Shown piece by piece: positions 201 through 57,866 of a stretch of 64,000 nucleotides of DNA. The translations under genes and the position numbers were made by a program. The notes beneath the pieces are model-generated. The model searched no databases. It was not told the DNA's origin and worked only from the letters and a program-made list of their open reading frames with translations. Within the stretch, counting starts at the first letter, position 1. Each line of letters begins with the position of its first letter. The stretch spans positions 62,001 through 126,000 of the forward strand of contig NZ_CP050134.2 in the NCBI RefSeq assembly GCF_011612265.2. The letters are read 5' to 3'. Source of the stretch: Corynebacterium matruchotii (lineage in GTDB: Bacteria > Actinomycetota > Actinomycetes > Mycobacteriales > Mycobacteriaceae).

Positions 201-1152
201 CCCCAGCCCGCTTTTCGACGCCACCTCCCGGCACCAGCCCATTCACCTCTCCCACGGGATCCCTCGCCTCCCGCCTCCCGGGGCCTCCTGCGTTAGCTTG
301 GTTTCCGTCGATTTGGCCCGGTTTTAGCCTGCCTTAGGGAGGTTTCCCAGCTAACGCCCGAGCGGGACGTTTGGGGTGGGGCGAGCTGGCTTCACCTGGT
401 TTCCCTGCGTGAGGTTGAGGAGGCCGGATTCCCGGCGTTGTAGTTTTCCGCTCTTTCCCTGGCCCGAGCGTTAGCTTGGGTTCGCGTTGGGGTGGCTCGG
501 AAACCTGCCTGATTTTTACGATTCCCAGCTAATGGTTTGACGGCTCAACTTTGCGATTTTTCACGCCTAGAGATTCCATCCGGGAGTCTCGGATCTCACC
601 ATGGCATCCTCTGCTTCCTTTCTGCGTTAGCTTGGGTTCGCATCAACGCAGGCCGCTGTGCTCGGTTCCAGGGAGGTTTCCCAGCTAACGCTCAAGCTGG
701 GAGCTTTGCCAGGTTTTGACCGGTGTGAAGCGTCAGGTTTGACGGGTCATATTCATTGTCTGTGGTTTTTCGCCCCTTTCCCGGCCCGAGTATTAGCTTG
801 GGTTCGCGTTGGGGCGGCTCGGAAACCGGCCTGATTTTTACGATTCCCAGCTAATGGTTTTGGCAGGTTTGCCAGGCTGCCATGCTTGCCCCTCCTATAG
901 GATTCCTCACCATATCCCCTCCTGCGTTAGCTTGGTTTCCGTTGGTTTGGCCCGGTTTTGGCCTGCCTCAGGGAGGTTTCCCAGCTAACGCTCGGGCCTG
1001 CCCGCGTCCGTACCCGCGGTGACCTGTGGCAGCCCACCGCGACGCCCGCCGCCCGGAACCAGCCTCAAGCCCCAACCCTAGGCGTCAAACCTCAAGCTCA
1101 TTCCGTTGGGGGATGACGGATTCAAACTCGCCGCTTGCTAAGATATCTTCCT
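201..1152. repeat. Repeat cluster A: five intergenic hairpin elements
   Basis: This 950-bp gap holds no convincing gene. It contains five copies of the inverted-repeat family at about 290-357, 468-535, 624-691, 791-856 and 924-991. The arms are of the type GCGTTAGCTTGG facing CCCAGCTAACGC. Copies 1 and 5 are nearly identical over their whole length. Copies 2 and 4 are also nearly identical, including flanking sequence (about 459-538 and 778-858), so they are local duplications. The short ORFs here run through the repeats and look accidental. Confidence 0.85.
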
Positions 1153-2988
1153 ATGACCACAGCCCGCTCTCTCACCACGCTCTCCGGTGTTATATCAGCA
1201 GTCGTTGTTGCCGCCCTCGGGTTTTACGGCGGCTGGCAGCGCCGTTGGATGAGCGATGATGGGTTGATTGTGTTGCGCACGGTCCGTAATCTTCTCGCTG
1301 GGAACGGGCCGGTTTTTAATGCGGGGGAGCGGGTGGAAACAAACACCTCCACCCTATGGCAATACATTATTTATATTGGCGCATTGATAAGTGGTTCCCG
1401 GTTGGAGACTATTGCCTTGTGGGCGGCGTTGGTCTTCACCACTGTGGCCCTGTTCATTGCGGCCGTGGCCACTGCGAAACTCTATCAGGGCAATAATCGG
1501 CTGCTGCTCCTGCCTTTTGGGGGGATATTGTACATTTCGTTGCCGCCAGCCCGGGATTTCGCCACCTCGGGCCTGGAGTGGGGCCTGTCCCTGCTGTGGA
1601 TTGCCACGTGGTGGTTCCTCATGGTTCAGTGGGTGGAGGATGCCAGGCTGCGGTGGGGGATTAAGTACAGCTATCTGTTGGCGTTTTGTTCGGGCTTGAG
1701 CTGGTTGGTGCGCCCAGAATTGGCATTGTATGGGGGCTTGTCGGGCCTGATGCTGCTGATTATGGATCGGAAAAATTGGTGGAAGATCCTCTTGGCGGCC
1801 ATCCCGGTGCCGTTGGCCTACCAGGTGTTTCGCATGGGCTATTACGGCCTGTTGGTGCCGCATACCGCGGTGGCGAAGTCGGCGTCGGGGTCGCAGTGGG
1901 GTGATGGCTGGTTTTACCTCATGGATTTTGTGACCCCATACCATTTGTGGTTGGGGGTGCTCATTGCTGCGGCGGCTGCCGGGTTGCGGGTGTGGAACGC
2001 CACGCGGGAGGCGTCGATAAGCGTGAATCGACGCACCGTGGTCATTGGGTTGACGTGTGGGGCGGCGCTGATTCATTTCCTTTATGTGCTGCGCGTGGGC
2101 GGCGATTTCATGCATGGGCGCATGCTGCTGCTGCCGTTGTTCACGCTGCTGCTGCCGGTGAGCGTTGTGGTGATTGATCGGCAGCGGATTCCAACGACCG
2201 TGGCGGCTGCTGGGCTGTTTATCGCCGGCATGGGCTGGAGCTTTGCGACGGTCCTAGGTGGGCACCCCTACCAGCTTCCCGAGGGGGACGAAGCCCCGCT
2301 GCGCATCGTGGACGAGCGGATTTTCTGGCAGCTGGCCACCTACCGGGACCAGCCCACCCGCTACGCCGAGGACTTCCTCACCGCCCGCAATATGAATAAT
2401 TTCGTGCCCATGCTGGAGCAGGGACGTGCCGCCCATGATGCCCAACTGTTTCAGATTCGCCTGAGTCAGCATCCTTTGGTGTTGTCGTGGGAGCCGCGGC
2501 CGCGCACCACCGAACACACCGACCTGGCCGACATGCCGCTGTCGCTTACCATGATTAATCTGGGCATGACCAGTATGAACGCCCCCCTGGACGTGCGGGT
2601 GCTCGACAATATGGGCCTGGCCAACCCCTTGGCTGGCCGCCAACCCCGGGTCGTCAATGGGCGGGTGGGGCACGACAAGAACCTGCCCTTGGAATGGCAG
2701 GTGGCGGATTCGGCCGTGCCGCTGGACGCCGTGCCGAGTTGGGTGGACAAAGCATATGTGAAGCGTGCCCGGGAGATTTTGTACACCCCGGAGTACCAAA
2801 AACTTTTCGCCTCGTACCGAAGCCCGCTCACCTTCAAACGCTTCCTTGCCAACATCAAATTCAGCCTGGGAGCAGGGCGGACCCTCCAGTTCCAGGAGGA
2901 CCCGGCCGCCTACCAAGGCCCCCTGCCTGTAGTGGATCCGCTTCCGATAAATTGGCCTCGGGACATCAAATTAGATCCGGTTCGCTAG
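1153..2988 (+). CDS. aftB: Terminal beta-(1->2)-arabinofuranosyltransferase AftB
   Basis: This encodes a 611-residue GT-C type membrane glycosyltransferase. It has an N-terminal membrane helix (about residues 9-27), an early acidic pair D35-D36 in the first extracytoplasmic loop (WMSDDG), a block of hydrophobic segments up to about residue 380, and a soluble C-terminal region. That architecture and the DD pair match AftB, which adds terminal arabinose residues from decaprenyl-phosphoryl arabinose to arabinogalactan. Start: an in-frame ATG lies at 1135, but the ATG at 1153 (MTTARS) leads straight into the membrane helix and is preferred. It sits between a UbiA-type gene and mycolyltransferases, the expected order. 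Substrate linkage is inferred from the family. Confidence 0.8.
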   Translation: MTTARSLTTLSGVISAVVVAALGFYGGWQRRWMSDDGLIVLRTVRNLLAGNGPVFNAGERVETNTSTLWQYIIYIGALISGSRLETIALWAALVFTTVALFIAAVATAKLYQGNNRLLLLPFGGILYISLPPARDFATSGLEWGLSLLWIATWWFLMVQWVEDARLRWGIKYSYLLAFCSGLSWLVRPELALYGGLSGLMLLIMDRKNWWKILLAAIPVPLAYQVFRMGYYGLLVPHTAVAKSASGSQWGDGWFYLMDFVTPYHLWLGVLIAAAAAGLRVWNATREASISVNRRTVVIGLTCGAALIHFLYVLRVGGDFMHGRMLLLPLFTLLLPVSVVVIDRQRIPTTVAAAGLFIAGMGWSFATVLGGHPYQLPEGDEAPLRIVDERIFWQLATYRDQPTRYAEDFLTARNMNNFVPMLEQGRAAHDAQLFQIRLSQHPLVLSWEPRPRTTEHTDLADMPLSLTMINLGMTSMNAPLDVRVLDNMGLANPLAGRQPRVVNGRVGHDKNLPLEWQVADSAVPLDAVPSWVDKAYVKRAREILYTPEYQKLFASYRSPLTFKRFLANIKFSLGAGRTLQFQEDPAAYQGPLPVVDPLPINWPRDIKLDPVR

Positions 2989-3430
2989 CGTTGCTAACCT
3001 CGATTGGGGGACGGTAGCACGATAGTTAAAAGCGATTCAAAAGTGTGAACGTTACCCAAGATTAGGGAAAGAGTTGCCCCCGGGGTAGCTGAGAACTGCC
3101 TTTAATTCGGCTGCGTGATTGTCGAAAAATGCCGGTGAAAATCGACGAAAAATCACCTGAGTTTCTCGCCCTATATACCCCAAGAAATTACCCCTGTAAC
3201 CCAATATAGGTGTAGTGGGTGATTTTATTATTACTGCTGGTAGTGAATGAATTTGATAGGTCTGCTACCAAAATTTTGTGGATGGTTAGGTAACAAAATA
3301 GGTGGACTAATTTATATCCCTGTTATAAAGTTTAGGCATTTAGTTGGCTCTTTGCTGTGAACCACTACAAAACCTAAGAGCAAGAAGTTTCACGAGAAGT
3401 GAATTATCTGACCTGAATCATAGGAGAAGC
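2989..3430. other. Upstream region of the first mycolyltransferase
   Basis: This 440-bp stretch is A+T-richer than its surroundings and carries no repeat element and no convincing gene. It contains a 7-bp inverted repeat CCTATAT (3170-3176) / ATATAGG (3204-3210) and the extended -10 promoter listed separately. It probably holds the regulatory region of the secreted mycolyltransferase. Confidence 0.5.
3321..3329 (+). promoter_or_regulatory. Extended -10 promoter of the mycolyltransferase gene
   Basis: The sequence TGT followed by TATAAA (hexamer at 3324-3329) is a good extended -10 element. A start point near 3336 would give a leader of roughly 95 nt before the ATG at 3431. No clear -35 is visible, as is common for extended -10 promoters. 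Confidence 0.45.
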
Positions 3431-4447
3431 ATGAAGTTCATGACACGCGCGATAAAGAAGGTGGCGGCGGCTGTCACCGCAGTTGCCGCTGCTTCCGTTC
3501 TGGCGGTGGCGGGCCAGGGCGTAGCTACTGCTGGCCCGCGGGACTGGTTGCGTCCTGACGCCACCGGGGCTTGTGAATGGGATGGGGTTGGCTTCTGGGT
3601 TCAGCGTTGTGACGTGTTTTCCCCAGCCATGAACCGGAACATCACCGTGCAAATTCAACCGGCACAACGAGGCGGTAATGCTGGGTTCTATCTGCTTGAC
3701 GGTGCTCGCGCCACCGAACGAGCAAATGCCTGGACCACCGACTCCAATGCCCCGGAGCTCTACGCTAACCACAACATCACCCTGGTGATGCCCGTTGGTG
3801 GTCAGGGTACTTTCTACCAAGACTGGCTACGGCCCGCTAACTACACCGGTGACGGCCCGCTGTTTAAGTGGGAAACCTTCCTCACCAAGGAACTCCCGGC
3901 TTACCTGGAGGGCAACTTCGGTGTTGCCAGGAACAACAACTCCATCGCCGGCCTGTCCATGGGTGGTACCGCCGCCCTGAACCTGGCAGCCCGCAACCCG
4001 GCAATGTTCAAGCAGGCCATGAGCTGGTCTGGCTACCTCACCATGTCCGGCCCGGGCATGAGCACCCTGGTGCGTCTAGCTATGCTGGACCTGGGCGGCT
4101 TCAACGTCAATAACATGTACGGTTCGATGTTCAACCCGAACCGGTACGAGAACGACCCCTTCTGGAACATGGGTGCCCTCAGGGGTAAGGACGTGTATAT
4201 TTCCGCAGCCAGCGGTTTCTGGAGTGCTGACGACATCATGCGCTACGAAGTGAAGGACCGGATCACCGGCTCCATCCTGGAGGCGTTCAGCCTGTACACC
4301 ACCACGCTGTGGGAGGCCAAGGCGCGCGCTGAGGGCGTGAATGTGACCGTTAACTATCCGGCAGCAGGCATCCACAACTGGTTGCAGTGGAACTACCAGT
4401 TGAACCTCACCAAGAACCGCGTGCTTGACGTCATGCAAGCTTGGTAA
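3431..4447 (+). CDS. cmt2: Secreted trehalose corynomycolyltransferase (antigen 85 family)
   Basis: This is a 338-residue secreted esterase-fold enzyme that transfers corynomycolate between trehalose esters and to arabinogalactan, outside the membrane. Start: ATG 3431 has AGGAG at 3422-3426; the longer in-frame extension upstream has neither a good RBS nor signal-like sequence. Residues 1-35 form a basic then hydrophobic signal peptide ending near VATAG. The nucleophile is Ser176 in GLSMGG, and a C-terminal GIHNW supplies the catalytic His; the whole layout follows the antigen 85 fold. Position directly before the PS1-like gene matches Cmt2 of C. glutamicum, so that symbol is used by synteny. 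It is monocistronic, with a strong terminator behind it. Confidence 0.88.
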   Translation: MKFMTRAIKKVAAAVTAVAAASVLAVAGQGVATAGPRDWLRPDATGACEWDGVGFWVQRCDVFSPAMNRNITVQIQPAQRGGNAGFYLLDGARATERANAWTTDSNAPELYANHNITLVMPVGGQGTFYQDWLRPANYTGDGPLFKWETFLTKELPAYLEGNFGVARNNNSIAGLSMGGTAALNLAARNPAMFKQAMSWSGYLTMSGPGMSTLVRLAMLDLGGFNVNNMYGSMFNPNRYENDPFWNMGALRGKDVYISAASGFWSADDIMRYEVKDRITGSILEAFSLYTTTLWEAKARAEGVNVTVNYPAAGIHNWLQWNYQLNLTKNRVLDVMQAW

Positions 4448-4470
4448 TCCACACATAACGGAAAGAAGTC

Positions 4471-4517
4471 ACCGGGGTATCGCAATTGTTGGGACTGCGA
4501 TGCCCCGGTAGCATTTT
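4471..4517 (+). terminator. Rho-independent terminator after the mycolyltransferase
   Basis: The arms ACCGGGGTATCGCA (4471-4484) and TGCGATGCCCCGGT (4496-4509) pair over 14 positions with a single G-T wobble. A loop of about 11 nt separates them and AGCATTTT follows. It lies 24 bp after the stop codon. Confidence 0.75.
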
Positions 4518-4693
4518 GTCGGTTTACCGGTGCGCCGCACAGCAAGGCACTATGGCGCCTTTACACTTGGCAGGTAACATTTGTGAGCTTTTCGACGAAT
4601 ATTCCTGTGAGGCCGACAGACCGTTACAATCGCCAGGGCAGGGGAATCCCCGGTGAATCAGCTCAGTACTAAAAACTTGAAGGATTGAACATA

Positions 4694-6670
4694 ATGCGTG
4701 TAACTCAACGTCGTTCCTACCAAATAGCCGCCCTTCCGGTGGCCATTGGCTTGGGAGTCTCCCTGCTATTTCCTCCCGCAGCGGTGGCGCAATCAACCAC
4801 CAGCGCGAAGCCAACTAGCACGAGCACTAGCAAATCCCGTAGCAGTAATTCGTCAAGCTCAGGAAGCCTGGGGAGCTCCTCCCTGAATGGCTTGACCGAC
4901 TACCTTGATACCAATGCAGTGGAACGCACCCCTATTCGCGTGGACGAGCGGCCCCAAATCAATGGTCTGCCCGATGGGGTGTCGGTGGAGCGTGTCAAGT
5001 GGATCACCGATAGGCGCATCGAACTGCAAATTAAGTCCAAGGTCATGCCGAAAGACGTGGTTAAGGTGCAAATGCTGTTGGCCCGCGATTGGCATTCCCA
5101 GCCGAATCGGAAATTCCCCGAGGTGTGGGCCCTCGACGGGTTGCGGGCCACCGACATTGAAAGCGGCTGGACTAGCGAAACCAACATTGAACAACTGTTC
5201 GCCGACAAGAACGTCAATGTGATCTTGCCTGTTGGTGGCGAATCCTCCTTCTACTCCGACTGGCAGTCCGAAGACAACGGCAAGCACTACATGTGGGAGT
5301 CCTTCCTGCTCAATGAGCTTATCCCCGTGCTGAAGAACGGCTATCGGGCCAATGGCGACCGGGCCATCTTCGGTCTGTCCATGGGTGGCACCGCCGCCAT
5401 GAACCTGGCGGAACGTAATCCCGACCTGTTTAAGTTTGTGGGCTCCTTCTCCGGGTATTTGGACACCACCAGCCCCGGCATGCCCGATGCTATCCGCACC
5501 GCCCAACAGGATGCTGGCGGATACCACAGCGAGGCCATGTGGGGGCCGGACGGCTCCCAACAGTGGATCGACCACGACCCCAAGCTGGGCATTAAGGCGT
5601 TGAAGGGGATGAAGGTGTATGTGTCGGCCGGCTCCGGCCGGGATGATTTCGGCCAGCCGGGCTCCGTCGCAAAGCATCCGGCGAATGCCGCCGGTATTGG
5701 GCTGGAAGTTATTTCGCGCATGACCACCCAAACCTTTGTCGACTTTGCCCGCCGGGATGGGGTGGAAGTTACCTCGGTGTTCCGGCCCTCTGGCGTGCAC
5801 GACTGGCCCTACTGGCAGTTTGAGATGGGGCAGGCCTGGCCGCACATCGCCGGGGCCCTTAACCTGTCGCAATCCGACCGCGGCGCCGACTGCACCCCCG
5901 TCGGGGCCATCGCCGAAGCCACCAAGGGCGGCGTCATCGGCAACTGCGTGAACAACGAATACGACGTGGCCGGCGGCAAGGGCCAGGACTTCACCAACGG
6001 TCGCGCCTTCTGGTCCCCGAACACTGGCGCCCAGGCCCTCTACGGCCGCATCGGCACCGTGTACACCGAGCTTGGCGGCCCCGGCTCCTGGCTGGGATTC
6101 CCCACCTCCACGGAACGCGGGCTCGCAAACGGTGGCCGGTTCGTCACCTTCGAACACGGCAATATCTACTGGACCCTGCAAACCGACGCCATTGCCGTGC
6201 CCACTGACATTGTGAACAAGTGGGGCGACCTCAAGTGGGAGAACGGTGACCTGGGTTACCCAGTGGCCGAAGCTACCGAACACAACGGTGGCCTGGTGCA
6301 GAAGTTCCAAAACGGCTACGTCACCCGTAACCCCAAGGGTGCTAATAACTGGGTGCGGGGCGCCATTGCCGCCAAGTACGGTGAGCTGCAAACCGCCAAG
6401 TCCAAACTGGGCTACCCCACCTCTGATGAGAAGTCCATCAACGGTGGCGCCTTCCAAGAGTTCGAAAACGGCAACATTTACTGGTCCCCCGCCACCGGCG
6501 CTCACGTTATCTACTACGGTGACATTTATAAGGCTTGGGGCGAAAAGGGCTACGAGCAGGGTGAATATGGCTACCCCACCTCCGATCAGGAGTCTGCTAG
6601 CGGTTCCATCACCTTCCAGGGTGGTAAAATGAGTCAATCCAATGGCAAAGTCCGCGAGGAGCGAAATTAG
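4694..6670 (+). CDS. cop1: PS1/Cop1-type mycolyltransferase with C-terminal LGFP repeats
   Basis: This is a 658-residue secreted mycolyltransferase. Start: ATG 4694 follows AGGA at 4681-4684; an in-frame TTG at 4685 would lack an RBS. A signal peptide spans about residues 1-31, then a Ser/Thr-rich linker to about residue 60. The antigen 85-like domain follows, with nucleophile Ser229 in GLSMGG and His369 in GVHDW. After about residue 395 come four LGFP-type repeats (cores LGFPTS, LGYPVA, LGYPTS, YGYPTS), thought to anchor the enzyme in the wall. Length and layout match C. glutamicum PS1 (Cop1). The stop codon overlaps the next gene's GTG by one base, so the two are cotranscribed. It is a diverged companion of the preceding mycolyltransferase. 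Confidence 0.9.
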
Positions 6671-7218: not shown

Positions 7219-7237
7219 CGCCGATCCAAGGAAGTTC

Positions 7238-8692: not shown

Positions 8693-8727
8693 AAGCGCAA
8701 TTTCAATCGATTTTATCGAGGAGACAC

Positions 8728-10770: not shown

Positions 10771-11076
10771 GTTAGCCCGTTAGCCCGTCAACCCGTCAGC
10801 CCGTTAGCTGGGTTTTGCCCTGTTTCGGCCTTGATCTGGCCTGTTTTCTGGGGAAACCCAAGCTAACACAGACTGGGGGGCGTAGGGAGAGGGCAAAACG
10901 AAGGTGCTGGGGTTGGTGGTTGGGAGGATCGCCGGTCGCTCACCATTGTTGGTGTTAGCTTAGACGTTCCGGTGGGATCGTGGCCTGTGGTTCTCCGCGG
11001 TCCGTTAACTCTTTGGCTGGGTTTTGCCCTGTTTCGGCTCTGATCTGGCCTGTTTTCGGGGAAAACCCAGCTAACG
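10771..11076. repeat. Repeat cluster B: octamer tandem array and two hairpin elements
   Basis: Five consecutive octamers run from 10771 to 10810 (GTTAGCCC twice, GTCAACCC, GTCAGCCC, GTTAGCTG). The last one is the left arm of a hairpin element at 10803-10867. A second element lies at about 11003-11076; its left outer arm is disrupted (GTTAACTCTTTGGCTGGG) while the right arm is intact. The loops of the two elements are nearly identical. The rest of the 10582-11310 gap holds the fadD32 terminator and no convincing gene. Confidence 0.8.
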
Positions 11077-11310
11077 CTGGTGCCGGCGGTCGCAGAGGCA
11101 GTCGCTGCTGGCTGCAGCTGGGCGCAGCCAGCCACTTAGCAGGTGTTTGGCAGGCGCAGGTGCGCGCCAGAGGATGCTTCATGATGGGTGTTAGGGCCTC
11201 AACTCTCCCTAACTCTCTCTGATTCCTCGATTTCCCCTTTAGGAGGCATGCCAAAAGCCCCCGTCCCGGCTCACGCCACCCCCTTGAGCCCTCCCCCGAA
11301 ACTTCCTAGG

Positions 11311-12327: not shown

Positions 12328-13181
12328 TTCTCCTGGTGAGAGGCGCTTTCTCTTTTAGCTTTACTCCTGTATTGCATACGCTGCAATGTGATGTTCGCCG
12401 TTTACCCCCGATCGTTTTCCGGTGGGTTGTCTGACCATTTTTATGGCCTTTGTTAGCTGCCGTATTTCCACCGGGTGCTACTTGTGGTGGGGGTGCTTGT
12501 GGTTCCGGGGTGGGTAATGGGGGAGGCAGGCCAGGGGTGAGTTGGGTGCAGCGCATGGTGTGCGGTGTGGCTGTCTGTGCACGCCGCGTTAGCTGGGGTT
12601 CCCGCCAAAATGGTCCAAGACAGGGCTGATTCAGGCGGTTTCCCAGCTAACGCGGCGGCGGCTGCCGCTGTGGTTGCTGCAACTGGTGGGTCCGGGCCCG
12701 GTGGGACTGGCGGGGTGAACATGTGGGAGCCGCGCCAGGGGAGCGAGCGAGGCGAGCGGTGGTCGTGGGCGTGGTTGTGGCTGTGGTGGAATGGTGTGCT
12801 GCCGGAGGTTTAGCTTGGTTTCCCTGGATTTGGGGTGGTTTTAGGCTGGTTTTAGGGAGAAACCCAGCTAACGCAACGAGCAGGGGGCGGCGGGTGCGGC
12901 GGGTGAGGGGGAAGGTGAGAGCGGGGCTTCTGGCGTCTGGGGCGGAGGTCCCGGTGGAGCCACCCCTGGCAGGCTCTCCGACGCCGCCGGCGGTGAAGGC
13001 CGCGGAGGGAGGGGGCCTAGGGGTTGGGAATTTACCCCCTTGAGGTCACCCCCTTGGGGCGTCGAAAAGCTAGGATCAGTAAACATGCAGCCTCTCAACA
13101 TTTTGATTGTAGCCCCAGGTAAGCGCTAATGTTGCTCAGTGTTACGTTTACATGGAGTGAACGAGAGTCGATAGGTGAGTT
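12328..13181. repeat. Repeat cluster C: two hairpin elements before pks13
   Basis: There is no convincing gene here. One element at 12584-12655 has a perfect 14-bp stem (CCGCGTTAGCTGGG facing CCCAGCTAACGCGG). Another at about 12808-12873 has arms GTTTAGCTTGGTTTC and GAAACCCAGCTAACG. The remainder is G+C-rich sequence with Pro/Arg-type spurious frames, and an A+T-rich promoter zone begins near 13080. Confidence 0.8.
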
Positions 13182-19830: not shown

Positions 19831-19856
19831 CCCGATTACCCCGACCAGCCCATTTC

Positions 19857-19922
19857 CGTTAGCTGGGTTTCGGGGTTTTTCGTTTCCCTTGGGCCCCGAT
19901 TTCCGCGGAACCCCAGCTAACG
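19857..19922. repeat. Repeat element D (single hairpin copy)
   Basis: A single copy of the repeat family has arms CGTTAGCTGGGTTTC and GGAACCCCAGCTAACG, forming a stem of about 14 bp with one wobble. It lies between the convergent ends of accD4 and the DUF4261 gene. Confidence 0.85.
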
Positions 19923-19940
19923 CTCGGGGGCCACGGGACG

Positions 19941-20786
19941 CTATACGGGGCTGATTTCCGTGAGCCGCAGCACCATTTGGGAGTCGCCAAAAACGGTGGG
20001 GCAATACTCAAACCCATACCGAAACTCGGGGGTTTCCACAGCAACCCCATCAGCGGTATGGGAGGTAGGAATATTCACACCACCCGCAAACAGCAGCACG
20101 GTGGTGGCCTCCTGAAGCGCAGACAGTGCGGCATTAATATCCGGTGCCCCATGCACAACCTCAACCTCGGGGATATTAAACTCCGTCATGCCCTGCGTGT
20201 AACCAATGGCGGTTTTCCCATCCGAATCCCCATTGAGAAGCACCCACACCTCGGTCATGGGGTGGGGCAGCGCCTGTTTAGCCATGGTGGTGAACAAATC
20301 CATGGGAACCAGGTGATCCGCCCCAAACCACATCATCGCAAACGCCGAACGAAACAGCGCACCTATCGACACCAGCATCTGCGACAACAACACCGCCAAC
20401 CGTGGAGTGTTCCCAGCCGTAGGGCCGTCGGCAGCATTGGCGGTGTTCAGGTGGGTGACATCATCAATCGTCACTATCACATGCATTGCGTGCTGATGAT
20501 TGAACGGCTCAGCCGCGGGCCACAACGGTGATTGCGGCAAGAGTTCCTCAGTCTGCTCAAACGGCTCCCGCGCGATGCTGCAGGTGATGAGCGCCCTGAA
20601 ACCGGTGGCTGGTTCCTGATACTCAAACGACAGGCTGTCCGCCTCCCCCTCGGTGAAGACATCAATGTTACGGAACTCGCCTTGCTGCAGCAGTTGCGGC
20701 CAATCCTGCGTTATTTGCCGAATGACCGAATCGTATCCACTGGGCGGCTCGCTTTCGTGACAGCATAAGAGTGCGGTGATAGTCAT
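19941..20786 (-). CDS. DUF4261-like protein of unknown function
   Basis: This is a 281-residue soluble protein, start ATG 20786 (MTITALLCC). A longer in-frame extension runs through repeat sequence and is not credible. The pattern fits DUF4261: an N-terminal mixed alpha/beta part, a central VIVTIDD strand near residue 108, a helix-rich middle around AFAMMWFGADHLVPMDLF, and a C-terminal GFEYCPTVFGDSQMVLRLTE. The domain has no known activity and occurs in varied contexts. No partner toxin or secretion gene is next to it. Repeat elements flank it on both sides, and the gene lies in the accessory stretch after accD4, so horizontal acquisition is possible. Confidence 0.6.
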   Translation of the reverse strand: MTITALLCCHESEPPSGYDSVIRQITQDWPQLLQQGEFRNIDVFTEGEADSLSFEYQEPATGFRALITCSIAREPFEQTEELLPQSPLWPAAEPFNHQHAMHVIVTIDDVTHLNTANAADGPTAGNTPRLAVLLSQMLVSIGALFRSAFAMMWFGADHLVPMDLFTTMAKQALPHPMTEVWVLLNGDSDGKTAIGYTQGMTEFNIPEVEVVHGAPDINAALSALQEATTVLLFAGGVNIPTSHTADGVAVETPEFRYGFEYCPTVFGDSQMVLRLTEISPV

Positions 20787-20853
20787 GCTCCCCGATTGTA
20801 TGCAACCCCCTACTGCCTGAGCCACCCTCCCGGCAGCCAAACCCGCCCGCAAT

Positions 20854-21061
20854 CCGTTAGCTGGGTTTCGCCCAAAACCGGCCCATTTCATCCCCTGCAG
20901 GGCGGGTTTCCCAGCTAACGGCCTGGGGTCCAGGGGCCAAACACCGCCAGGGCACAGCACCGCTGGGCACCAGGGTGGGCGGCCGCGTCGGCGAGCGTTA
21001 GCTTGGTTTCGCTCCATCGGGCCCTGATTTTGGGCCCATCCTCACCGAAACCCAGCTAACG
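20854..21061. repeat. Repeat cluster E: two hairpin elements
   Basis: Elements lie at 20854-20921 (perfect 12-bp outer stem CCGTTAGCTGGG/CCCAGCTAACGG) and 20996-21061 (CGTTAGCTTGGTTTCG facing CGAAACCCAGCTAACG, with a one-base bulge). They occupy the gap between the divergent DUF4261 and histidine kinase genes. The remaining 95 bp before the kinase should hold its promoter. Confidence 0.85.
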
Positions 21062-21157
21062 GAAACCACGGAGATCGTGGAAACCACGGGGATGCCCGCC
21101 AAAAAATCGTGACGTCAGTCATGGGTTTTATCCCATTCGCCTTGATAGTGTGAGGCC

Positions 21158-27266: not shown

Positions 27267-27315
27267 CCGGCTTCACCCGGTTGACACCGGCTGGTTTTGT
27301 GGGGTGAGCTGCGTG

Positions 27316-28121
27316 TTTGCTTTAGCTGGGGTTCTGGTTTTTGGGAGATTTCTTCCTGGGCGAACCGGGGCGGCTGGTCGGAACCCAAGCTAAAGCAAAA
27401 CCCCTGCTTGGCAAGCTGCAAGCGTGCTGAGCTTGGGTTCTGATTCCAGTGGGTGGATTCGGGCCGCTGACGGAGGGAATCCCAGCTAAAGCGGGGCTGG
27501 TGTCCGGTCGGGGCCTGGTTGGGATCTAGCTGCAGGTGTTCTAAGCTTGGGTTCCGGGTTTTAACGTCCTAAATGCGTGCCCTTTGAAGTGGAATCCAAG
27601 CTTAGAGGATATGCGGCAAGGGTCGTGGAGGGTTTGGTCGGTATGGCCGGTTTCCTTGGTTGAGCTGCGTGTTTGCTTTAGCTGGGATTCCGGTTTTGGG
27701 GAGATTTCTTCCTGGGTAAACCGGGGCGGCTGGTCGGAATCCCAGCTAAAGCAAAACCCCTGCTTGTTAGGCTGCGTATCTTCTAAGCTTGGGTTCTGTG
27801 TGTAGGGAGCCTGAATCCGTCTGTTGGGTGCGGAGCCCAAGCTAAAACAAAGCCGGAGTTAGACCAGGGGTGCGGTCGGACTTTGGCTGCATATCTTCTA
27901 AGCTTGGTTTCTGTTTGATGCCGCTTGTTGGTCCAGGGGAATGTTGGTCTGAAATTGAAACCCAAGCTTAGAAGATGTGCGGCAAGGGTCGTGGAGGGTT
28001 TGGGCAGTACGGTCGGTTTCCTTGGTTGAGCTGCGTGTTTGCTTTAGCTGGGGTTCCGGTTTTCAGGAGTTTTCTTCCTGGGTAAACCGGAGTTGCCAAA
28101 CAGAACCCCAGCTAAAGCAAA
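27316..28121. repeat. Repeat cluster F: seven hairpin elements
   Basis: The 970-bp gap between the ABC exporter and DUF3054 is nearly filled by elements at about 27316-27399, 27425-27492, 27539-27607, 27672-27755, 27781-27848, 27893-27976 and 28038-28121. Arms are of the TTTGCTTTAGCT, TTCTAAGCTTGG and TGCTGAGCT types. The last has a perfect 19-bp stem, and the sixth a 15-bp perfect stem plus 4 bp after a bulge. A unit of about 165 bp is duplicated (27597-27763 and 27963-28129). The first and fourth copies differ by paired changes in both arms. No gene is visible. Confidence 0.9.
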
Positions 28122-28239
28122 AGCCCTGCTTGGCGGACTGGGCCAAGCAGGGGTGGGGCAAAACAAATCCCTCCGGGTGGCTGGATCAGAGGCCAGGCCG
28201 GCCTTAGCCACCGGGAGGGCGTCGCAAAGCGGGGAGGGG

Positions 28240-36080: not shown

Positions 36081-36146
36081 GGTCTGACAGTTCGGTGGGC
36101 TGTTAAGCCGAGTGGTGGTGCCGGTTTTCTGTCGTTGAGCTGCGTG

Positions 36147-36874
36147 TTTGCTTTAGCTTGGTTTCCGGTTTTCGGGAGTTTTCTTTCTGGGTAAACCGGC
36201 GTGGCTGGTTGGAATCCCAGCTAAAGCAAAAGTCCTGCCTGTTCTGGCTGCATGTGTGCTGAGCTTGGGTTCTGGTTTGTGGTGGGGTATTTCCTGGGCT
36301 TATGGTCTGGTTAGATGTGGAAGTCAAGTTTAGGGGATGTGTGGCAATAGGTGGGTAGGTTTTCCTGGGTTAGGCTGTCCATTCGCTTAGCTTGGATTCG
36401 TCACCCAACAGGTAGAGTCAGGCCGTCAATAGACGGAACCCAAGCTAACGCGAAACTGATGTTAGGCCGGGAGATTGGCCGGGTTCTCTAGCTGCATATC
36501 TTCTAAGCTCGGTTTCTATTTGGTGTCGCTTGTTGGCCTAGGGAGAATATTGGCCTGAAATTGAAACCCAAGCTTAGAACAAATGCTGCTGCGGGCAATG
36601 GGGGTATCGGTTGTGCTGGAATTGGGCCCTGGTTTGAGGTGAGATATTCCTGGGTAATCTGGTATGGCTGGTTTTCTGGGGTTGAGCTGCGTGTTTGCTT
36701 TAGCTTGGGTTCCGGTCGATACCACCCTAAATCTGTGCCTTCCGAAGTGGAACTCAAGCTCAGCAGGTGTGCTGTCCGGCCAAAGTATGGTGGCTGCAAG
36801 AATGCTGAGCTGTACTTTCTCGATTCAGATGCTCTGCGCAGTCTTGTTCCCGATTAGAACCCAAGCTCAGCAGC
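36147..36874. repeat. Repeat cluster G: six hairpin elements after pck
   Basis: Elements lie at about 36147-36230, 36257-36335 (degenerate), 36382-36454, 36501-36579, 36693-36765 and 36803-36874. The fifth is a chimera: its left outer arm is the TTTGCTTTAGCT type and its right outer arm the AGCTCAGCA type. The sixth belongs to a subtype with an interior beginning GACTTTC or TACTTTC followed by TCGATTCAGA, which recurs at 44143 and 57292. No gene is visible among them. Confidence 0.85.
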
Positions 36875-36884
36875 TGAGCGACAG

Positions 36885-43802: not shown

Positions 43803-43826
43803 TTGTGGAAAACCTGGTGTCACTCT

Positions 43827-44738
43827 TGCTGAGCTGGGGTTCCGGTTTACCAGGGATTGCGAGGTTGGAATAATGGCGAACCCCAGCTCAGCACACCTGA
43901 TATCCGGCCTCTTGCGCCCGGCTGCATAAGTTCTAAGCTTGGGTTTCGGGTTTGTGCCGGTGCGCGTCCTGGGCAAACAGGGGCAGCCGAATAGAAAACC
44001 ATGCTTAGAAGGTTTGCGGCAGGATTATGGGGGGGCTCTGTGGATAGGGCTTCAGGTCTGCTTAGCTTGGTTTCCGTTCCGCGGAGCATGGTTTGAGGGG
44101 ATATCAGCCGGAACCCAAGCTCAGCGAATGCGGCTTCATTATTGCTGAGCTTGACTTTCCCGATTCAGAAGCTCCACGCGGTTGTGCTTGAAACCGGAAC
44201 TCCAGCTCAGCACACCTACTATTCCCTTTCCCGCCATGGCTGCAAAGGTTCTAAGCTTGGGTTCCGGATTTGGGTCGGTGCGCGTCCTGGGCAAACAGGG
44301 GCAGCCGAATAGAAAACCATGCTTAGAACATGTGCTGTAGGACATTGAGGGTTCGGTGTGGTTTCGGATTTGCGTTAGCTGGGGTTCCCACTAATGGTGG
44401 CCAAACTGCATGTCCTGTAGCGCCAAACCCAAGCTAAAGGATTGAGCTGTAGTTTGGGTTTTCCTGGACCTCTGGTGAAGCGAAGCGGCCGAAACCTCAG
44501 CTCAGTACGTTTGATACCCATCCTGCTGTTCCCGGCTGCATATGTTCTAAGCTTGGGTTCCGGGTTTAGGCCGATGCGTATCCTGGGCAAACGGGGGCAG
44601 CCGAATAGAAAACCATGCTTAGAAGGTTTGCGGCAGGATTGTGGGGGCTTTGTGGATAGGGCTTCAGGTCTGCTTAGCTGGGGTTCCGTTCCCGGCGGGT
44701 GGATTTGGTTCGGTTATGCGCAGAACCCCAGCTAACGC
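43827..44738. repeat. Repeat cluster H: nine hairpin elements
   Basis: Elements lie at about 43827-43893, 43931-44010, 44060-44126, 44143-44212, 44249-44328, 44371-44440, 44441-44508 (degenerate), 44545-44624 and 44672-44738. The first has a perfect 16-bp stem (TGCTGAGCTGGGGTTC facing its complement). The second, fifth and eighth are close copies sharing the interior CCTGGGCAAAC...GGCAGCCGAATAG. A unit of about 155 bp is duplicated (43921-44078 and 44535-44690). This is the densest cluster; no gene is visible between tmaT and the manganese operon. Confidence 0.9.
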
Positions 44739-44835
44739 GAAGGCGCTGCCGCGGGGGTAGTGGTGGGTGATGGTGGGGGTATTTCGGGCCGGGAGGGCGT
44801 CGTCAAGCAGGGAAGAAAACGAGCACTGAAACCAT

Positions 44836-52591: not shown

Positions 52592-52720
52592 AATTGCAAA
52601 GATAGCAGCATTCAAGCTTAGGGAAAATACCTTTGACGATTCTCACCTTAGAACGGGTGGGGTAACCAGGTGGGGTGTGGTGGGGGCATGGCGGAAACCC
52701 ACCCGTATTATCGGTGGCGG

Positions 52721-53251: not shown

Positions 53252-53269
53252 TTGACTAACTTTCTCGCT

Positions 53270-53740
53270 TTACGACGACCGAAGGTTCCTTCTCTCCCAT
53301 ATTAACCCCCGCACCAGTTGAAACATGCCCAATACAGCCCCACCCAAAAATAACCAGATTGATGCTTCCAACAACGCGTTAATGCCTAACGGCTCCGCAT
53401 AATACAGGGCATGAGTATTATTCGGTACGGAGGTGGCGAAAAACCCCAATCCCCACATGTTCACAATTGCGAACAGGCCCAACATAAACAGGTAGAACGG
53501 TCCGAACCGCTGCAATACCCCCACCGACCCGCCGGTGGGGAGAACACTATTTCGGGTGACCCCGACGGCGATGCTTCCGGTGATCCCGGCCGTCATCAAT
53601 TCAAACCCCAGCAGCGCCATGACGTGATACCACAATGGCACCGGTGGTGCCGCAGTTTGGCCTATTGCAGTAGTGAAAACCCCATAAATAACAAGCCCAA
53701 TGACCGTTACTGAACTCGTGATCTTCAACAGGGTGCGCAT
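53270..53740 (-). CDS. Small polytopic membrane protein (paralogue 2)
   Basis: This is a 156-residue protein with four helices and no known domain. Start ATG 53740 (MRTLLKITS) is chosen because it lines up with the start of its neighbour; a TTG at 53785 would extend it by 15 residues. The leaders are alike too, with AGAAAGTTGG here and AGAAAGTTAG before the neighbour. It lies 18 bp upstream of paralogue 1, surely cotranscribed. The role is unknown; the pair sits between the aftD unit and a cell-wall hydrolase gene. Confidence 0.58.
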   Translation of the reverse strand: MRTLLKITSSVTVIGLVIYGVFTTAIGQTAAPPVPLWYHVMALLGFELMTAGITGSIAVGVTRNSVLPTGGSVGVLQRFGPFYLFMLGLFAIVNMWGLGFFATSVPNNTHALYYAEPLGINALLEASIWLFLGGAVLGMFQLVRGLIWERRNLRSS

Positions 53741-54067
53741 GGAAACCAACTTTCTGGGGAAAATGTGCATATAGTGTCCGGCCAAATGAAGTTATTGAAA
53801 TGACAAAATTGCAATCACCTTTAGTTATGAGGTAGTGCGACTTTTATACATTAGCAGTTGTTAGAGGTCAGGGTTCGATGTGGATACCACACTAGTAGTG
53901 AAAGTTTTTACTATATATGCTTGGGATATGTTCGATTTCCGCAGGAGGGAAAACTACCCCCAAACTTGTTGAACCGTGGGTGATGCCCCAGGGGCGGGGG
54001 TACCAACACACGGGGAATGCGTGTTGAAGATTCCGCTGGTGAAAACGTTTCCAATACTGTAGAGGGC
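53741..54067. other. Divergent control region
   Basis: This 327-bp A+T-richer gap separates the minus-strand membrane pair from the NagZ-like gene and should contain both promoters. A short GTGG/CCAC hairpin lies near 53879-53889. An in-frame ATG at 54017 exists but is less likely than 54068 as the nagZ start. No repeat element is present. Confidence 0.4.
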
Positions 54068-55216
54068 ATGAAGAAATTTCCCGTTCTGGCCCTCCTGGTT
54101 GCGGTCACGGTAACAACCACCCTGGTGGGCTGCACCGATAATGCAACCGACCAAGCCGCACCAACGAGTGAAATAACCACCACCACGGCCCCGACGTCGA
54201 CAAGCAGTGTGGCGCCGACAACTACCTCAACCACACCCGCCAACCCCGAACTGCGCACCAAGGTAGCGCAACTCATGATGGTGGGCGTCCGCAATTTCGA
54301 TGACGCCCTGGCCGCGCTGGAGCAGGGCGCCGGCGGCATTTTTATTGGTTCCGACACCGAAGCCGCCATTCTCACCACGCCCGGGCGTGACATTGCCGAG
54401 CTCCACAACCGTGTCGGCCGGCCATTCGCCGTCAGCATCGACTTCGAAGGCGGGCGGGTACTCCGCCACCCCGAGGTGCTGGGAACCTTCCCCTCGCCCC
54501 GCACCATGGCCAAGGAGAAGAAACCCGAAGAGGTTCGCGGCATGGCCTACGACATGGCCACCTCGCTGGCCCGCCATGGCATCACCGTTGATTTCGCCCC
54601 CGTGGTCGATATTGACGGTGCTGGCCTGGAGGTTGTGGGTGATCGGGCGTTTAGCGACGACCCTGCCGTCGCCGCCGAATACGCCTCGGCCTTCGCCCAG
54701 GGCATGCTTGATGGTGGCGTCATGCCCGTCTTCAAGCATTTCCCGGGCCACGGCAGGGCCAGTGGTGACTCCCACCTGGGCACAGTCGTCACTCCGCCGC
54801 TGAATGAACTACAAAATTTCGAACTCGTCCCCTATCGCAGCATTCTGGCTACCCCCGGTGTTGGGGTCATGGTGGGGCACATGGCGACGCCAGGATTGGG
54901 CGACGGCAAAACCCCATCCTCTATCAACCCTGCTGCATATCAGCTGCTACGGTCGGGTAGTTACGAAGGCGGCCGTCCCTTCGACGGGCCGGTTTTCACC
55001 GATGATCTTTCAGGTATGAAAGCTATTAGTAACCAACTAACTCCGCAGGATGCGGCGGCTACCGCTATCATTGCTGGAGCCGACCAAGCCCTCTGGTTGA
55101 CCACCGATGCGCTCCTGCCAGCGATCGACACCACCATGAAACGGATTGCTGAGGGAGCCTTAAGTGAACAAGATGTGTTCGCAAAAGCTGAGCGCGTAAG
55201 CCACTATCAGCGCTAG
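54068..55216 (+). CDS. nagZ: Lipoprotein beta-N-acetylhexosaminidase (GH3, NagZ/LpqI-like)
   Basis: This is a 382-residue exported GH3 hydrolase that likely removes N-acetylglucosamine from muropeptides. Start ATG 54068 gives a signal peptide with lipobox LVGC, followed by a Thr/Ser-rich linker (residues ~24-60). The general acid/base loop KHFPGHGRASGDSH lies near residue 225 and the nucleophile Asp is in VFTDDLSGMKA near residue 312. FEGGRV near residue 128 is also typical. Outside the membrane it would act on wall turnover. The VanW-type gene follows after ~30 bp and may be cotranscribed. Confidence 0.85.
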   Translation: MKKFPVLALLVAVTVTTTLVGCTDNATDQAAPTSEITTTTAPTSTSSVAPTTTSTTPANPELRTKVAQLMMVGVRNFDDALAALEQGAGGIFIGSDTEAAILTTPGRDIAELHNRVGRPFAVSIDFEGGRVLRHPEVLGTFPSPRTMAKEKKPEEVRGMAYDMATSLARHGITVDFAPVVDIDGAGLEVVGDRAFSDDPAVAAEYASAFAQGMLDGGVMPVFKHFPGHGRASGDSHLGTVVTPPLNELQNFELVPYRSILATPGVGVMVGHMATPGLGDGKTPSSINPAAYQLLRSGSYEGGRPFDGPVFTDDLSGMKAISNQLTPQDAAATAIIAGADQALWLTTDALLPAIDTTMKRIAEGALSEQDVFAKAERVSHYQR

Positions 55217-55248
55217 TGGGGGCAGAATAGATTCGAAAACACTAGGAA

Positions 55249-56967
55249 TTGTCTACTACATTGGTAAGAGTGATCGAACAGGATACTGAGCTGACTTCAG
55301 GCAATATGCCGGCCCGATTCTTCGGCGGCATACTGCTTGGGCTTTTTGTGCTTTTGGGCACTGGTTACGGTGTCGATTATTTTCTCAGCCAAGGTACCAT
55401 GCCCCGCGGCACCATGATCGGTGGCGTGCAGGTCGGCGGCATGAAACGCGCCGAAGCGAAAGAACTCTTGCAAAAAGAGCTTGCCGACGAAATTATCAAG
55501 CCCGTCACTATCACAGCAGGTCAACGCACCTCAATCATCGACCCTCGGGCGGCCGGCCTGAGGGTCAACTGGGATAAAACCTTAGATTCTGTGGAATCCC
55601 AATCACTCAACCCTATTAAACGGATCCTTGGTTTCTTTAAAGACACCGAGGTTCCTATCGTTTCCGACGCTGATCCGGCCAATTTCCGGCCCGCTGTCGA
55701 TCGGGTCACCAAGGAGCTCAGCCCCGCACCCGTCGACGCCGGCATCGTGCTCACCGGCGGTCAAGTGAAAGTGGATCCGGCCCCCGCCGACGGCCAAACC
55801 GTCGACGCCGAACAGGTGGAAAAATCCATTCTCACCGGCTGGCTGAAACCCGGTGGTGTGAAGGAACACGCCACCATCTCCCACCCGAAATATGGGGAGA
55901 AACAGGTGCAGCCCATTGTGGAGGGTCCCGGGAAGAAGGCCGTGTCCGCGCCCCTGGTGCTGCACGGCCGGGACAATATTAATGGTGAAATCCCAGTCGA
56001 TCGCATGGGTGAGGTGGTGACCTTCCGGCCCGAAAATGACGAGTTCAAGATCGACTTCAACTACGATCGGGCCCGTGAAATCTTCGCCGAAAAACTCATC
56101 ACCACCGAAAAACCCCGGGTCAACGCCAATATTACGTTCCACGGCTCCGACCGCACGGTCACACCCCACAGCGATGGTGTGCACATCGACTGGGTGAAAA
56201 CGTTCGACCACATCAACGAGCGCATCATCGCCGACGACCCCCGCACCTGGGACGCCACCTACATTGACGAACCAGCCAGCTTCACCACCGAAATGGCCAA
56301 CGCCGCCACCTTCGACCAGGTGGTGGGCGAATTCACCACTGGCGGCTACTCCCAGGCGTCCGGCGTGAACATTGCCCGGGTGGCAGAAATGGTGGATGGC
56401 GCTATGGTCGCCCCTGGCGACACGTTCAGCCTCAACGGTTACACCGGCCCACGTGGCACCGCCCAGGGCTTCGTGGAATCCGGTATTATCATGAACGGTC
56501 ACGCGGATAAGGCGGTGGGTGGTGGCATCTCCCAGTTCGCCACCACGCTCTATAATGCGGCCTATTTTGGCGGCATGGAGGACGTGACTCACACACCTCA
56601 CAGCTACTATATTTCCCGGTACCCGGCCGGCCGTGAGGCAACCGTGTTCGAAGGCGCAATCGACTTGGCGTTTAAGAACACCAGCCAATACCCGGTGCGC
56701 ATCGTGACCTCTGCTGGCGGCGGCCAGGTGACCGTGAAGCTCATGGGCGTGAAGGTGGTCAATGTGGAGTCCGTGAACGGCGGCCGTTGGGCTACCACAC
56801 AGCCGAATACGATCAGCCTGTCAGGCAAAGATTGTTCGCCCTCCAGCGGCGCACCCGGGTTTACCACCTCCGATACGCGCATTGTGAAGGACCTCAACGG
56901 TAACGAGCTGTCCCGCAAAACCACCACGACGGTGTATAATCCCTCGCCCATTGTGAAGTGCACCTAA
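55249..56967 (+). CDS. VanW-domain, peptidoglycan-binding membrane protein
   Basis: This protein has up to 572 residues. An N-terminal membrane helix (about residues 23-45) precedes repeated PG_binding_4-type regions (pattern GTMIGGVQVGGM, then a VTITAG strand) and the VanW domain near residues 360-500, with FSLNGYTGPR, GGGISQFATTLYNAAYFGG and a FEGAIDLAFKN segment. Such proteins are thought to bind or modify wall peptidoglycan; the biochemical role of VanW is not settled. The start is uncertain: TTG 55249 has no proper RBS, TTG 55261 or GTG 55270 are alternatives, and ATG 55306 would still keep the helix. It follows the NagZ-like gene closely. Confidence 0.78.
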   Translation: MSTTLVRVIEQDTELTSGNMPARFFGGILLGLFVLLGTGYGVDYFLSQGTMPRGTMIGGVQVGGMKRAEAKELLQKELADEIIKPVTITAGQRTSIIDPRAAGLRVNWDKTLDSVESQSLNPIKRILGFFKDTEVPIVSDADPANFRPAVDRVTKELSPAPVDAGIVLTGGQVKVDPAPADGQTVDAEQVEKSILTGWLKPGGVKEHATISHPKYGEKQVQPIVEGPGKKAVSAPLVLHGRDNINGEIPVDRMGEVVTFRPENDEFKIDFNYDRAREIFAEKLITTEKPRVNANITFHGSDRTVTPHSDGVHIDWVKTFDHINERIIADDPRTWDATYIDEPASFTTEMANAATFDQVVGEFTTGGYSQASGVNIARVAEMVDGAMVAPGDTFSLNGYTGPRGTAQGFVESGIIMNGHADKAVGGGISQFATTLYNAAYFGGMEDVTHTPHSYYISRYPAGREATVFEGAIDLAFKNTSQYPVRIVTSAGGGQVTVKLMGVKVVNVESVNGGRWATTQPNTISLSGKDCSPSSGAPGFTTSDTRIVKDLNGNELSRKTTTTVYNPSPIVKCT

Positions 56968-57866
56968 CTCCTCACGCTTGACGACGGCCGGGCGGTGCCG
57001 GGTTTAGCGGTTGCCGGGATCAGACCCCAGCTCGGGTCTTGTGTATGGTCGCGTGCCTGGCTTCGGGGCGGGGAGATTCAAATTCGGTTTTCCTGCTTGA
57101 TCTGCGCGTTTGCTTTAGCTTGGGTTCCGGCCCAGCGAGCCCTGAAAACTCGGAAATAATCACGAACCCCAGCTAAAGCAAAACCGCAGCTAGATTGGCT
57201 GTGAGGGGGTTGAGGGCGGTTGCAGGGAGTGCTATCAACCGGCACCCAGGCTAAAGCGCACGCGGCGCCAGGTCTGCCGCCGCTGCATGTTTGCTGAGCT
57301 TGACTTTCTCGATTCAGAAGCGTTGCTCGACTGTGTCTAGGAATGAAACTCTAGCTTAGGGCATGTGCAGCCGCAGTCATGGGTGTAATCATGTTAGGGG
57401 AAATACACAACCGGGAGAACCAAGATGCCATTGGACAAGAGCCAATTCTGTCTAGGCTCCAATTATTTCCAGCAAAGCAAGGAAGAACCTCCCTATCCTT
57501 GATTTCCAGCTTTTCCTTTTCTGTTCACGCCTATGCCTACGCCTACGCAGACGACTAGCTAGCGACATGTGAAGCTCCCTTCTTTCTGAAATGTTGGAAA
57601 AGAAACTATCTTCACGTCGAATATATGCCAGTGCATCACCACAATGCGTAGCGGAAATGATTTGTGTACACCCATGTGGTAGGTGGTGTGACTACCTGGA
57701 AATATTTGGGAAATCATTCAAAAAGACCAGGATATTTAAGGTAAACTTCAATATCCTGGTCAGCGTCCAGAACTATGCAGAAAACTCGAAGCCCAGCTAT
57801 CGACCGGTTGTGGGGCGATAGCTGGGCTGGGCTGGCTGGCTCTCGGGATCCTTCAACATCCTTCAG
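56968..57866. repeat. Repeat cluster I and two separate perfect hairpins
   Basis: Family elements lie at 57109-57183 (18 of 19 stem positions pair) and 57292-57361 (degenerate right arm); an isolated right half-arm lies near 57238-57257. Two other hairpins follow. GACCAGGATATT/AATATCCTGGTC (57725-57736/57750-57761) has 12 bp, and AGCCCAGCTATCG/CGATAGCTGGGCT (57790-57802/57816-57828) has 13 bp. The last could end transcription of the minus-strand gene at 57867. A 76-codon frame at 57591 spans the first of these hairpins and is not believed. Confidence 0.7.

Follow-up and report, generated by a model that had tools for sequence, protein, structure and literature searches.

Helically phased arrays of paired inverted sites in the origin half of the Corynebacterium matruchotii chromosome

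Paired inverted sites in intergenic arrays

The stretch analysed here (the window) comprises 64,000 nucleotides of the Corynebacterium matruchotii genome (contig NZ_CP050134.2; G000:C1:62001-126000, where G000 denotes the window's genome, a single 2.87-Mb contig). Its intergenic gaps contain a family of dyad-symmetric elements, each composed of two inverted sites, which is the subject of this report. Among the genes of the window, 17 of 20 scanned proteins matched Pfam families, including a polyketide synthase, an AMP-binding enzyme, a carboxyltransferase, phosphoenolpyruvate carboxykinase, an MMPL protein and two esterase-family proteins, one with LGFP repeats. We take the matched proteins to be mycolate and other core genes, and a horizontally acquired island was rejected on the basis of these matches.

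Elements were detected with a paired-site scan, which looks for a 12-bp core (about WAGCTKGGGTTC) and its reverse complement at a set distance, using a score matrix trained on the elements themselves. Between window positions 280 and 57371 the scan found 35 elements at strict score, 25 of a short and 10 of a long spacing class, and a further copy at 44450, whose odd spacing is 42 bp, brought the total to 36. These counts are far above chance. TTAGCTTGGGTTC with at most three mismatches had 72 matches compared with 13.5 ± 3.75 in shuffles, the first 186 kb contained 78 core pairs compared with 6 in the reversed control, and the 2.21 Mb of the genome that were scanned (2,212,540 bases, 77% of the contig) contained 171 pairs at allowed spacing compared with 3 in the reversed sequence. 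When grouped by position, 170 elements formed 47 groups, 31 of which had at least two members and together contained 154 elements. Elements scoring below 21.5 or with other spacings (8 in the genome scan) are excluded from the statistics, as is the odd-spaced copy at 44436..44518. Phasing, class, context and folding statistics use 160 elements in 38 groups; orientation, similarity and distance-to-dnaA statistics use 163 elements in 41 groups. A covariance-model scan scored 150 of 1237 candidates, and statements on location rest instead on the paired-site scan of 2.21 Mb.

The original prediction for this DNA had described about 36 hairpin repeats, none of them in a gene. The number of repeats was confirmed, as were a 19-bp perfect stem at 28038-28121 and an example of differing arms, GGGATTCC/GGAATCCC as opposed to GGGGTTC/GAACCCC. 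Exclusion from genes held for 168 of 171 dyads, while 3 of 171 fell within a predicted open reading frame (ORF). One of these, at window 20858, lies close to the N-terminus of an ORF with a weak score, and its element (20844..20931) is probably upstream of the true start of ORF 19941-21017(-).

The cores of an element lie 47-50 or 58-61 bp apart, measured start to start, and 69 bp apart in 6 of 170 elements. Each half-site spans about 23 bp, with arms that continue for about 10 bp past the core up to a conserved GCA, and has the G000 consensus GCAnnTnTnCTnAGCnnGGnTTY. Arrays are intergenic and hold up to 11 elements. The 82 elements of the long class (57-62 bp) have 51 occurrences of CCNGG at most 1 bp from the exact dyad, and 55 of 82 have it anywhere; the corresponding figures for the short class are 0 and 17 of 74. 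One short subtype has CTGAATCGAGAAAGT adjoining one half-site, and an asymmetric subtype has CTCGATTCAG or a variant beside one half-site (window 57282-57371, 44133-44222, 36793-36882 and others); each occurs on both replichores. Local subfamilies are marked by AAGCGGGG near dnaA, AAGCATGG at -128 to -198 kb, TTAGCT/AAGCTTGG at +222 to +350 kb and GAGCTGGAG at both outer edges of the distribution.

Gene contexts of the arrays were ++ in 8 cases, -- in 14, +- in 8 and -+ in 8. We rejected a role as operators of neighbouring genes because there was no divergent-promoter bias (8 of 38 arrays versus 106 of 432 gaps). Convergent gaps were slightly over-represented (8 of 38 arrays versus 57 of 432 gaps).

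Table 1. Elements of the family in window coordinates, all located by the paired-site scan
Feature	Coordinates	Spacing (bp)	Remark
Array A, element 1	280..367	48	
Array A, element 2	458..545	48	
Array A, element 3	614..701	48	
Array A, element 4	780..867	48	
Array A, element 5	914..1001	48	
Element	10791..10879	49	
Element	11000..11087	48	
Element	12576..12663	48	
Element	12797..12884	48	
Element	19846..19933	48	
Element	20844..20931	48	within long-start reading of ORF 19941-21017(-)
Element	20985..21072	48	
Array B, element 1	27309..27406	58	long class
Array B, element 2	27415..27502	48	
Array B, element 3	27529..27617	49	top score with model R2
Array B, element 4	27665..27762	58	
Array B, element 5	27771..27858	48	hybrid outer arms
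Array B, element 6	27886..27983	58	top score with model R1
Array B, element 7	28031..28128	58	19-bp perfect stem
Array C, element 1	36140..36237	58	
Array C, element 2	36247..36345	59	folding no better than shuffles
Array C, element 3	36374..36461	48	
Array C, element 4	36491..36589	59	
Array C, element 5	36687..36775	49	hybrid outer arms
Array C, element 6	36793..36882	50	
Array D, element 1	43817..43903	47	
Array D, element 2	43921..44020	60	
Array D, element 3	44049..44136	48	
Array D, element 4	44133..44222	50	
Array D, element 5	44239..44338	60	
Array D, element 6	44362..44450	49	
Array D, degenerate element	44436..44518	42	odd spacing
Array D, element 7	44535..44634	60	
Array D, element 8	44661..44748	48	
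Element	57102..57189	48	
Element	57282..57371	50	asymmetric CTCGATTCAG subtype

Helical phasing and arm compensation

Successive left cores in arrays lie 73, 84, 104-107, 114-117, 123-130, 133-137, 145-149 and more bp apart, with exceptional distances of 97, 101, 103, 141, 156, 160 and 173 bp. Among periods of 8-14 bp, element-to-element distances were best described by 10.5 bp (R = 0.63, n = 120); distinct distances alone gave R = 0.46 (n = 58), and 0 of 2000 jittered sets reached as high a value. For all pairs within arrays, the left-left phase at 10.5 bp was -0.01, 0.01, -0.01 and 0.05 turn at 0-180, 180-300, 300-500 and 500-800 bp, respectively, with R of 0.64, 0.52, 0.49 and 0.34. Right-right R was 0.62, 0.44 and 0.42 over the distance classes up to 500 bp. 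A generic motif, TNARCN6TY, was required to have 5 or more of 6 arm matches at 13-120 bp; its 88 hits at allowed spacings (ten in number) were all known elements of the origin domain described below. The same motif gave 0 hits at fifteen off-phase spacings, single hits at a few other distances and 1 hit in the reversed sequence. Loosened to 4 of 6 arm matches, it gave 123 hits at allowed spacings (121 in the domain and 2 outside) and 0 off-phase.

The 10.5-bp register, together with the near-zero phase between like arms, indicates helical phasing of double-stranded sites, and a hairpin of RNA or of single-stranded DNA would not leave this signature. A B-DNA register is understandable where duplex sites are bound on a single face, and we know of no reason for a helical register in RNA or in an extruded hairpin. 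Spacing periodicity can in this way tell duplex-level from RNA-level selection.

The original prediction had read the matching changes in opposite arms as compensatory and had proposed that selection or copying acts on the folded form, as for a structured RNA or protein-binding hairpin. We examined arm matching in alignment A1, in which 65 copies were used after 2 of 78 pairs had been dropped (one in a gene, one overlapping) and 11 more copies omitted. In this set 73.2% of cells were paired compared with 65.1% in shuffles, 231 cells were changed on both sides compared with 135, and the covariation score was 0.306 compared with 0.183; each value beat all 500 shuffles, and slid partners scored at most 0.141. 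However, the two measures least shifted by relatedness did not stand out, with 22 pairs showing two-sided change versus 20.7 in shuffles (89 of 500 as high) and 77 further pair types versus 73.0 (53 of 500 as high). Column pairs inside one arm scored as high as stem pairs, and RNAalifold predicted only 8 consensus pairs. A second alignment, A2, used 84 of 105 picked elements.

When right arms were permuted within arrays, an excess of matching stayed at core positions 0, 4, 5, 7 and 8 (z 6.7, 4.7, 2.7, 3.1 and 3.3), and positions -12 to -2 (z <2) as well as 9, 10 and 11 had no significant element-level excess. Arm matching at position 0 rose from 0.42 globally to 0.69 on permutation inside arrays and to 0.86 in the real elements. 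The larger part of the arm compensation is concerted evolution (homogenisation) of arrays, and the remainder is limited to the 9-bp core, where it may stem equally well from a preference for homotypic half-sites, from duplication of whole elements or from pairing of the cores. Apparent stem covariation in intergenic repeats can arise from concerted evolution.

In terms of folding, the z-score of the minimum free energy (MFE) against shuffles was below -2 in 111 of 160 elements (median -3.4) and no better than -1 in 26 of 160; low values follow for any inverted repeat. An asymmetry between 51 GU-type and 27 AC-type core-stem cells looked strand-specific and was left unused, as orientation is random between arrays. 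We consider it highly improbable that the elements are structured RNAs, attenuators or terminator hairpins acting in transcripts. The MFE values, the high raw covariation scores and a covariance model that recognises the family well would suit such a role, but they are opposed by the helical phasing between elements, an outer stem that is not constrained per element, the lack of gene-orientation preference, the occurrence of both orientations between arrays and the confinement to the origin half. Moreover, the elements had no Rfam match at gathering scores. The window's only Rfam match was a tRNA, whose gene lies at 63713-63783 on the minus strand.

Selection or copying of a folded single strand was thus not borne out, given the B-DNA spacing, the outer stem, the 26 poor folders and the two orientations. 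What survived of the earlier claims was a plausible role in protein binding and the copying or maintenance of the element as one unit with dyad symmetry. Matching of the outer stem reflects similarity at the array level, and the RNA part of the proposal is disfavoured.

Confinement around the origin, local spread and turnover

With the only DnaA match (2684015-2684497, minus strand) as origin marker, 170 of 171 strict elements in the scanned sequence lay between -593 and +683 kb of dnaA. The sole outlier, at +1143 kb, is within a predicted gene and at background level (reversed sequence: 3). Of the bases scanned, 1290 kb fell inside -600..+690 kb and 923 kb outside. An element was present in 43 of 247 gaps of at least 400 bp inside these limits and in 0 of 127 outside; therefore, lack of room does not explain the confinement. 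The 41 arrays had a mean distance to dnaA of 294 kb, compared with 611 ± 65 kb for random gaps of at least 250 bp (none of 20,000 draws reached so low a mean). The maximum distance is smallest for a centre at 2.73 Mb, 46 kb from dnaA, and the mean distance for one at 2.755 Mb. This origin-centred confinement corresponds to 44.5% of the chromosome, with a spread of 1.28 Mb. Exact AGCTNGGGTTC had 63 matches in the genome, and as 51 of them lie at 40-167 kb, the family is regional. A replication-polar motif was rejected, since element orientation is independent of replichore.

The origin region of G000 also contains a parS cluster at G000:C1:2706321-2715724 (ori+22 to +31 kb, 9.4 kb), with 14 exact 16-bp sites and 56 with at most two mismatches, and the only ParB-family (ParB_N) match of the genome is, like this exceptional cluster, near the domain centre, which suits the origin-domain proposal made below. 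The GTTTCACGTGAAAC 14-mer parS core occurs 45 times in G000 and 0-18 times in 241 other genomes of the genus (the 0 being from the incomplete G209). Ten parS sites in 35 kb have been reported for C. glutamicum (PMC7083940), and up to 20-23 sites for S. coelicolor and L. innocua (PMC7333895). A second repeated motif, CGTCGNAAAGC, occurs at window 210, 13059 and 28219 and genome-wide, with 422 copies in 2.21 Mb versus 20 in the reversed sequence. It is densest near the origin, has no replication-strand bias (199 of 422 leading) and lies within predicted genes in 221 of 422 cases.

Similar elements (alignment of at least 60 bp) made up 12.6% of pairs at 1.2-20 kb and about 1% of pairs beyond 150 kb, and homologous elements in different arrays were about equally frequent in both orientations. 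Two adjoining elements at ori-127 kb (G000:C1:2557078-2557300) recur inverted at ori+116 kb (2800436-2800670) with 98.8% and 100% identity over 85 and 100 bp, possibly marking an inversion or gene-conversion point symmetric about oriC.

Clear arrays were confined to two genomes, G000 and G209, among 242 from the genus. Seven other genus genomes had one or two weak matches each (E 2e-4 to 9e-3), and among 397 genomes drawn from the order there was only G000 and one short match in G333 (2.8e-7 over 59 bases). These lone weak matches, and one in G017 (E 0.04), were assumed to be chance palindromes; at least 115 stretches from other bacteria in a pattern scan of contigs were likewise taken as chance matches. 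The flank about 1.2-1.5 kb downstream of pck had a paired element in 0 of 9 genomes (eight of the genus, one of the order) and has 6 in G000.

G209, from a second, independent species, is a 53%-complete assembly of 30 contigs, of which contig C9 was examined whole and C4 and C20 in part. We found 51 elements with spacing 48-50 and cores different from those of G000, [GA]AAC..GG.TTC and AAGCTCCC.TTC, with one off-phase control hit; one weak 58-bp candidate was omitted. These elements were also phased, with R(10.5) = 0.51 (n = 37, Rayleigh p 6e-5), a best period of 10.7 and R = 0.38 for distinct distances (n = 26). Contig C9 is largely collinear with G000 at about -709 to -534 kb, and its elements start at the equivalent of about -681 kb. 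A G000 element was present in the orthologous gap for 2 of 11 C9 arrays. The gap at C9:155240-156152 holds seven elements, and the same genes are 13 bp apart in G000 (2127180-2127193), which reflects gain or loss of a whole array. Judged from the two genomes, geometry and regional confinement persist while single arrays come and go.

These features bear on whether the arrays are mobile or neutral DNA. One alternative is that they resemble bacterial interspersed mosaic elements (BIMEs), doublets of repetitive extragenic palindromes (REPs) known as REPINs, or miniature inverted-repeat transposable elements (MITEs), spread by a transposase or by recombination, with the origin bias stemming from gene dosage or tolerance and the phasing from the insertion or duplication mechanism. 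We regard this as doubtful. The tandem inverted intergenic units do resemble BIMEs, similar elements are commoner at short range and in both orientations between arrays, and gap occupancy differs between species, as in the seven-element gap of G209. However, the original suggestion of a REPIN moved by a Y1/RAYT transposase failed, as a search of G000 that was limited, among transposase types, to PF01797 (Y1_Tnp) found 0 matches, although it was positive for 5 of the 14 control genomes. The 44.5% origin-centred confinement and the near-zero-phase 10.5-bp register over hundreds of base pairs also speak against it, and to our knowledge neither is a property of REP or BIME families.

Neutral satellite-like DNA, multiplied by unequal recombination and template switching and bound by nothing, is in our judgement an unlikely explanation. 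Array-level homogenisation, local subfamilies and hybrid arms are all in line with it, but it predicts neither the helical quantisation of arm and element spacing in two species nor an empty terminus half.

An origin-domain reading and its relation to known systems

We propose, with a probability of about 0.52, that the arrays are cooperative binding sites of a putative protein whose role would be to mark or organise the origin domain. Each element would be a double-stranded, dyad-symmetric candidate binding site with two inverted half-sites, whose spacing classes of 47-50 and 58-61 (rarely 69) bp differ by one B-DNA turn. The distances in the arrays tend to bring left half-sites onto a common side of the helix, and right half-sites hold a constant face of their own. 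The putative protein may bind half-sites as dimers, and side-by-side contacts on one face would then build a cooperative nucleoprotein array. Since the arrays lie no further than about ±0.6-0.7 Mb from oriC, they would serve to mark, compact or tether this half of the chromosome, a proposed job akin to that of ParB-parS, RacA-ram, Noc-NBS and RefZ-RBM elsewhere. The architecture in two species, the helical phasing, the distribution centred on the origin, the intergenic location free of promoter bias and the lack of a RAYT match are observations; the protein, its cooperativity and the origin-domain function are what we infer from them.

Several observations weigh against this proposal. Right-right phasing is gone at 500-800 bp (R 0.24, best period 11.6), left-left phasing is absent past 800 bp, and dyad-to-dyad distances within arrays carry no phasing signal. 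Elements spread locally by copying, so that counts are not independent, and collapsing homologous neighbour pairs to 21 clusters weakened the phasing signal (R = 0.52, n about 20, p about 0.004). The division into spacing classes, the cut-off for scores and the limits of the domain were chosen with the data already in view, and gaps of at least 700 bp are more frequent in the origin domain (13.4 per 100 kb) than outside (6.9). Simple site recognition does not predict the arm-to-arm matching of cores above the array level. The ParB_N search of G000 found no Noc-like paralogue. In addition, 240 of 242 genus genomes have no recognisable arrays, and 9 of 11 C9 arrays lack a G000 element in the orthologous gap. 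Array positions therefore turn over fast, which leaves room for a BIME-like or satellite-like origin; such an origin would be compatible with a function.

A different occupant of the sites could be DNA gyrase or another wrapping topoisomerase, loaded by the arrays to manage supercoils around the origin, as has been reported for E. coli BIME-2. We consider this quite unlikely. BIME-2 arrays bind gyrase (PMC2817692), and a wrapped complex would fit a unit of about 100 bp that has a dyad and a motif at its centre.

A more specific form of the origin-domain proposal, which we advance tentatively, is a fast-evolving centromere-like system in which phased satellite-like arrays of double sites, bound by a putative protein, would define an origin domain spanning about 45% of the chromosome, alongside a several-fold expanded parS centromere. 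By analogy with eukaryotic centromere satellites, array sequences would differ from one sister species to the other, with geometry and regional location retained. Provided that a protein binds them, the arrays would constitute a bacterial origin-domain system with long helically phased site arrays, in which sequence, not geometry, turns over between close species. This gives a testable case of bacteria defining a large oriC domain by means besides ParB-parS.

The original prediction knew of no corynebacterial element of this form, and this is supported within the open PubMed Central (PMC) literature, where, among the matches listed, titles and abstracts describe no such element; subscription papers were outside the scope. 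An earlier survey of stem-loop families covered C. diphtheriae (PMC2267715).

REPIN and BIME families are typically dispersed over the whole genome. The elements described here have only 1 of 171 copies outside -600..+690 kb, with 923 of the 2213 kb scanned lying outside. They share with BIMEs, REPs and REPINs intergenic palindromic repeats, two inverted units, tandem arrays, hybrid copies and local spread (PMC2817692). They differ in having no Y1 transposase match, in occupying the origin half only and in a spacing quantised by the helical turn.

The many origin-proximal sites recall ParB-parS, in which parS serves the segregation machinery. However, the element sequence is unrelated to the TGTTTCACGTGAAACA 16-mer, which is present separately as the 9.4-kb cluster, and the elements are paired half-sites spread over 1.28 Mb rather than one cluster.

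In function the elements may also be likened to the sites of RacA-ram, Noc-NBS, RefZ-RBM and SlmA, which mark the chromosome relative to oriC, as ram sites do for RacA, or avoid the terminus. The ram, NBS, RBM and SlmA sites are single short palindromes bound by known proteins, whereas the sites reported here are double sites of about 100 bp in phased arrays. NBS sites have a gap at ter and the position of RBM is conserved (PMC6657595). Absence from the terminus (with 77% of the genome examined) is shared with NBS, although G000 has no Noc-like ParB paralogue beside its one ParB_N match and the resemblance would be one of working only. The family is thus neither REPIN, parS nor a known RNA family, and by analogy would work like the origin-marking site families.

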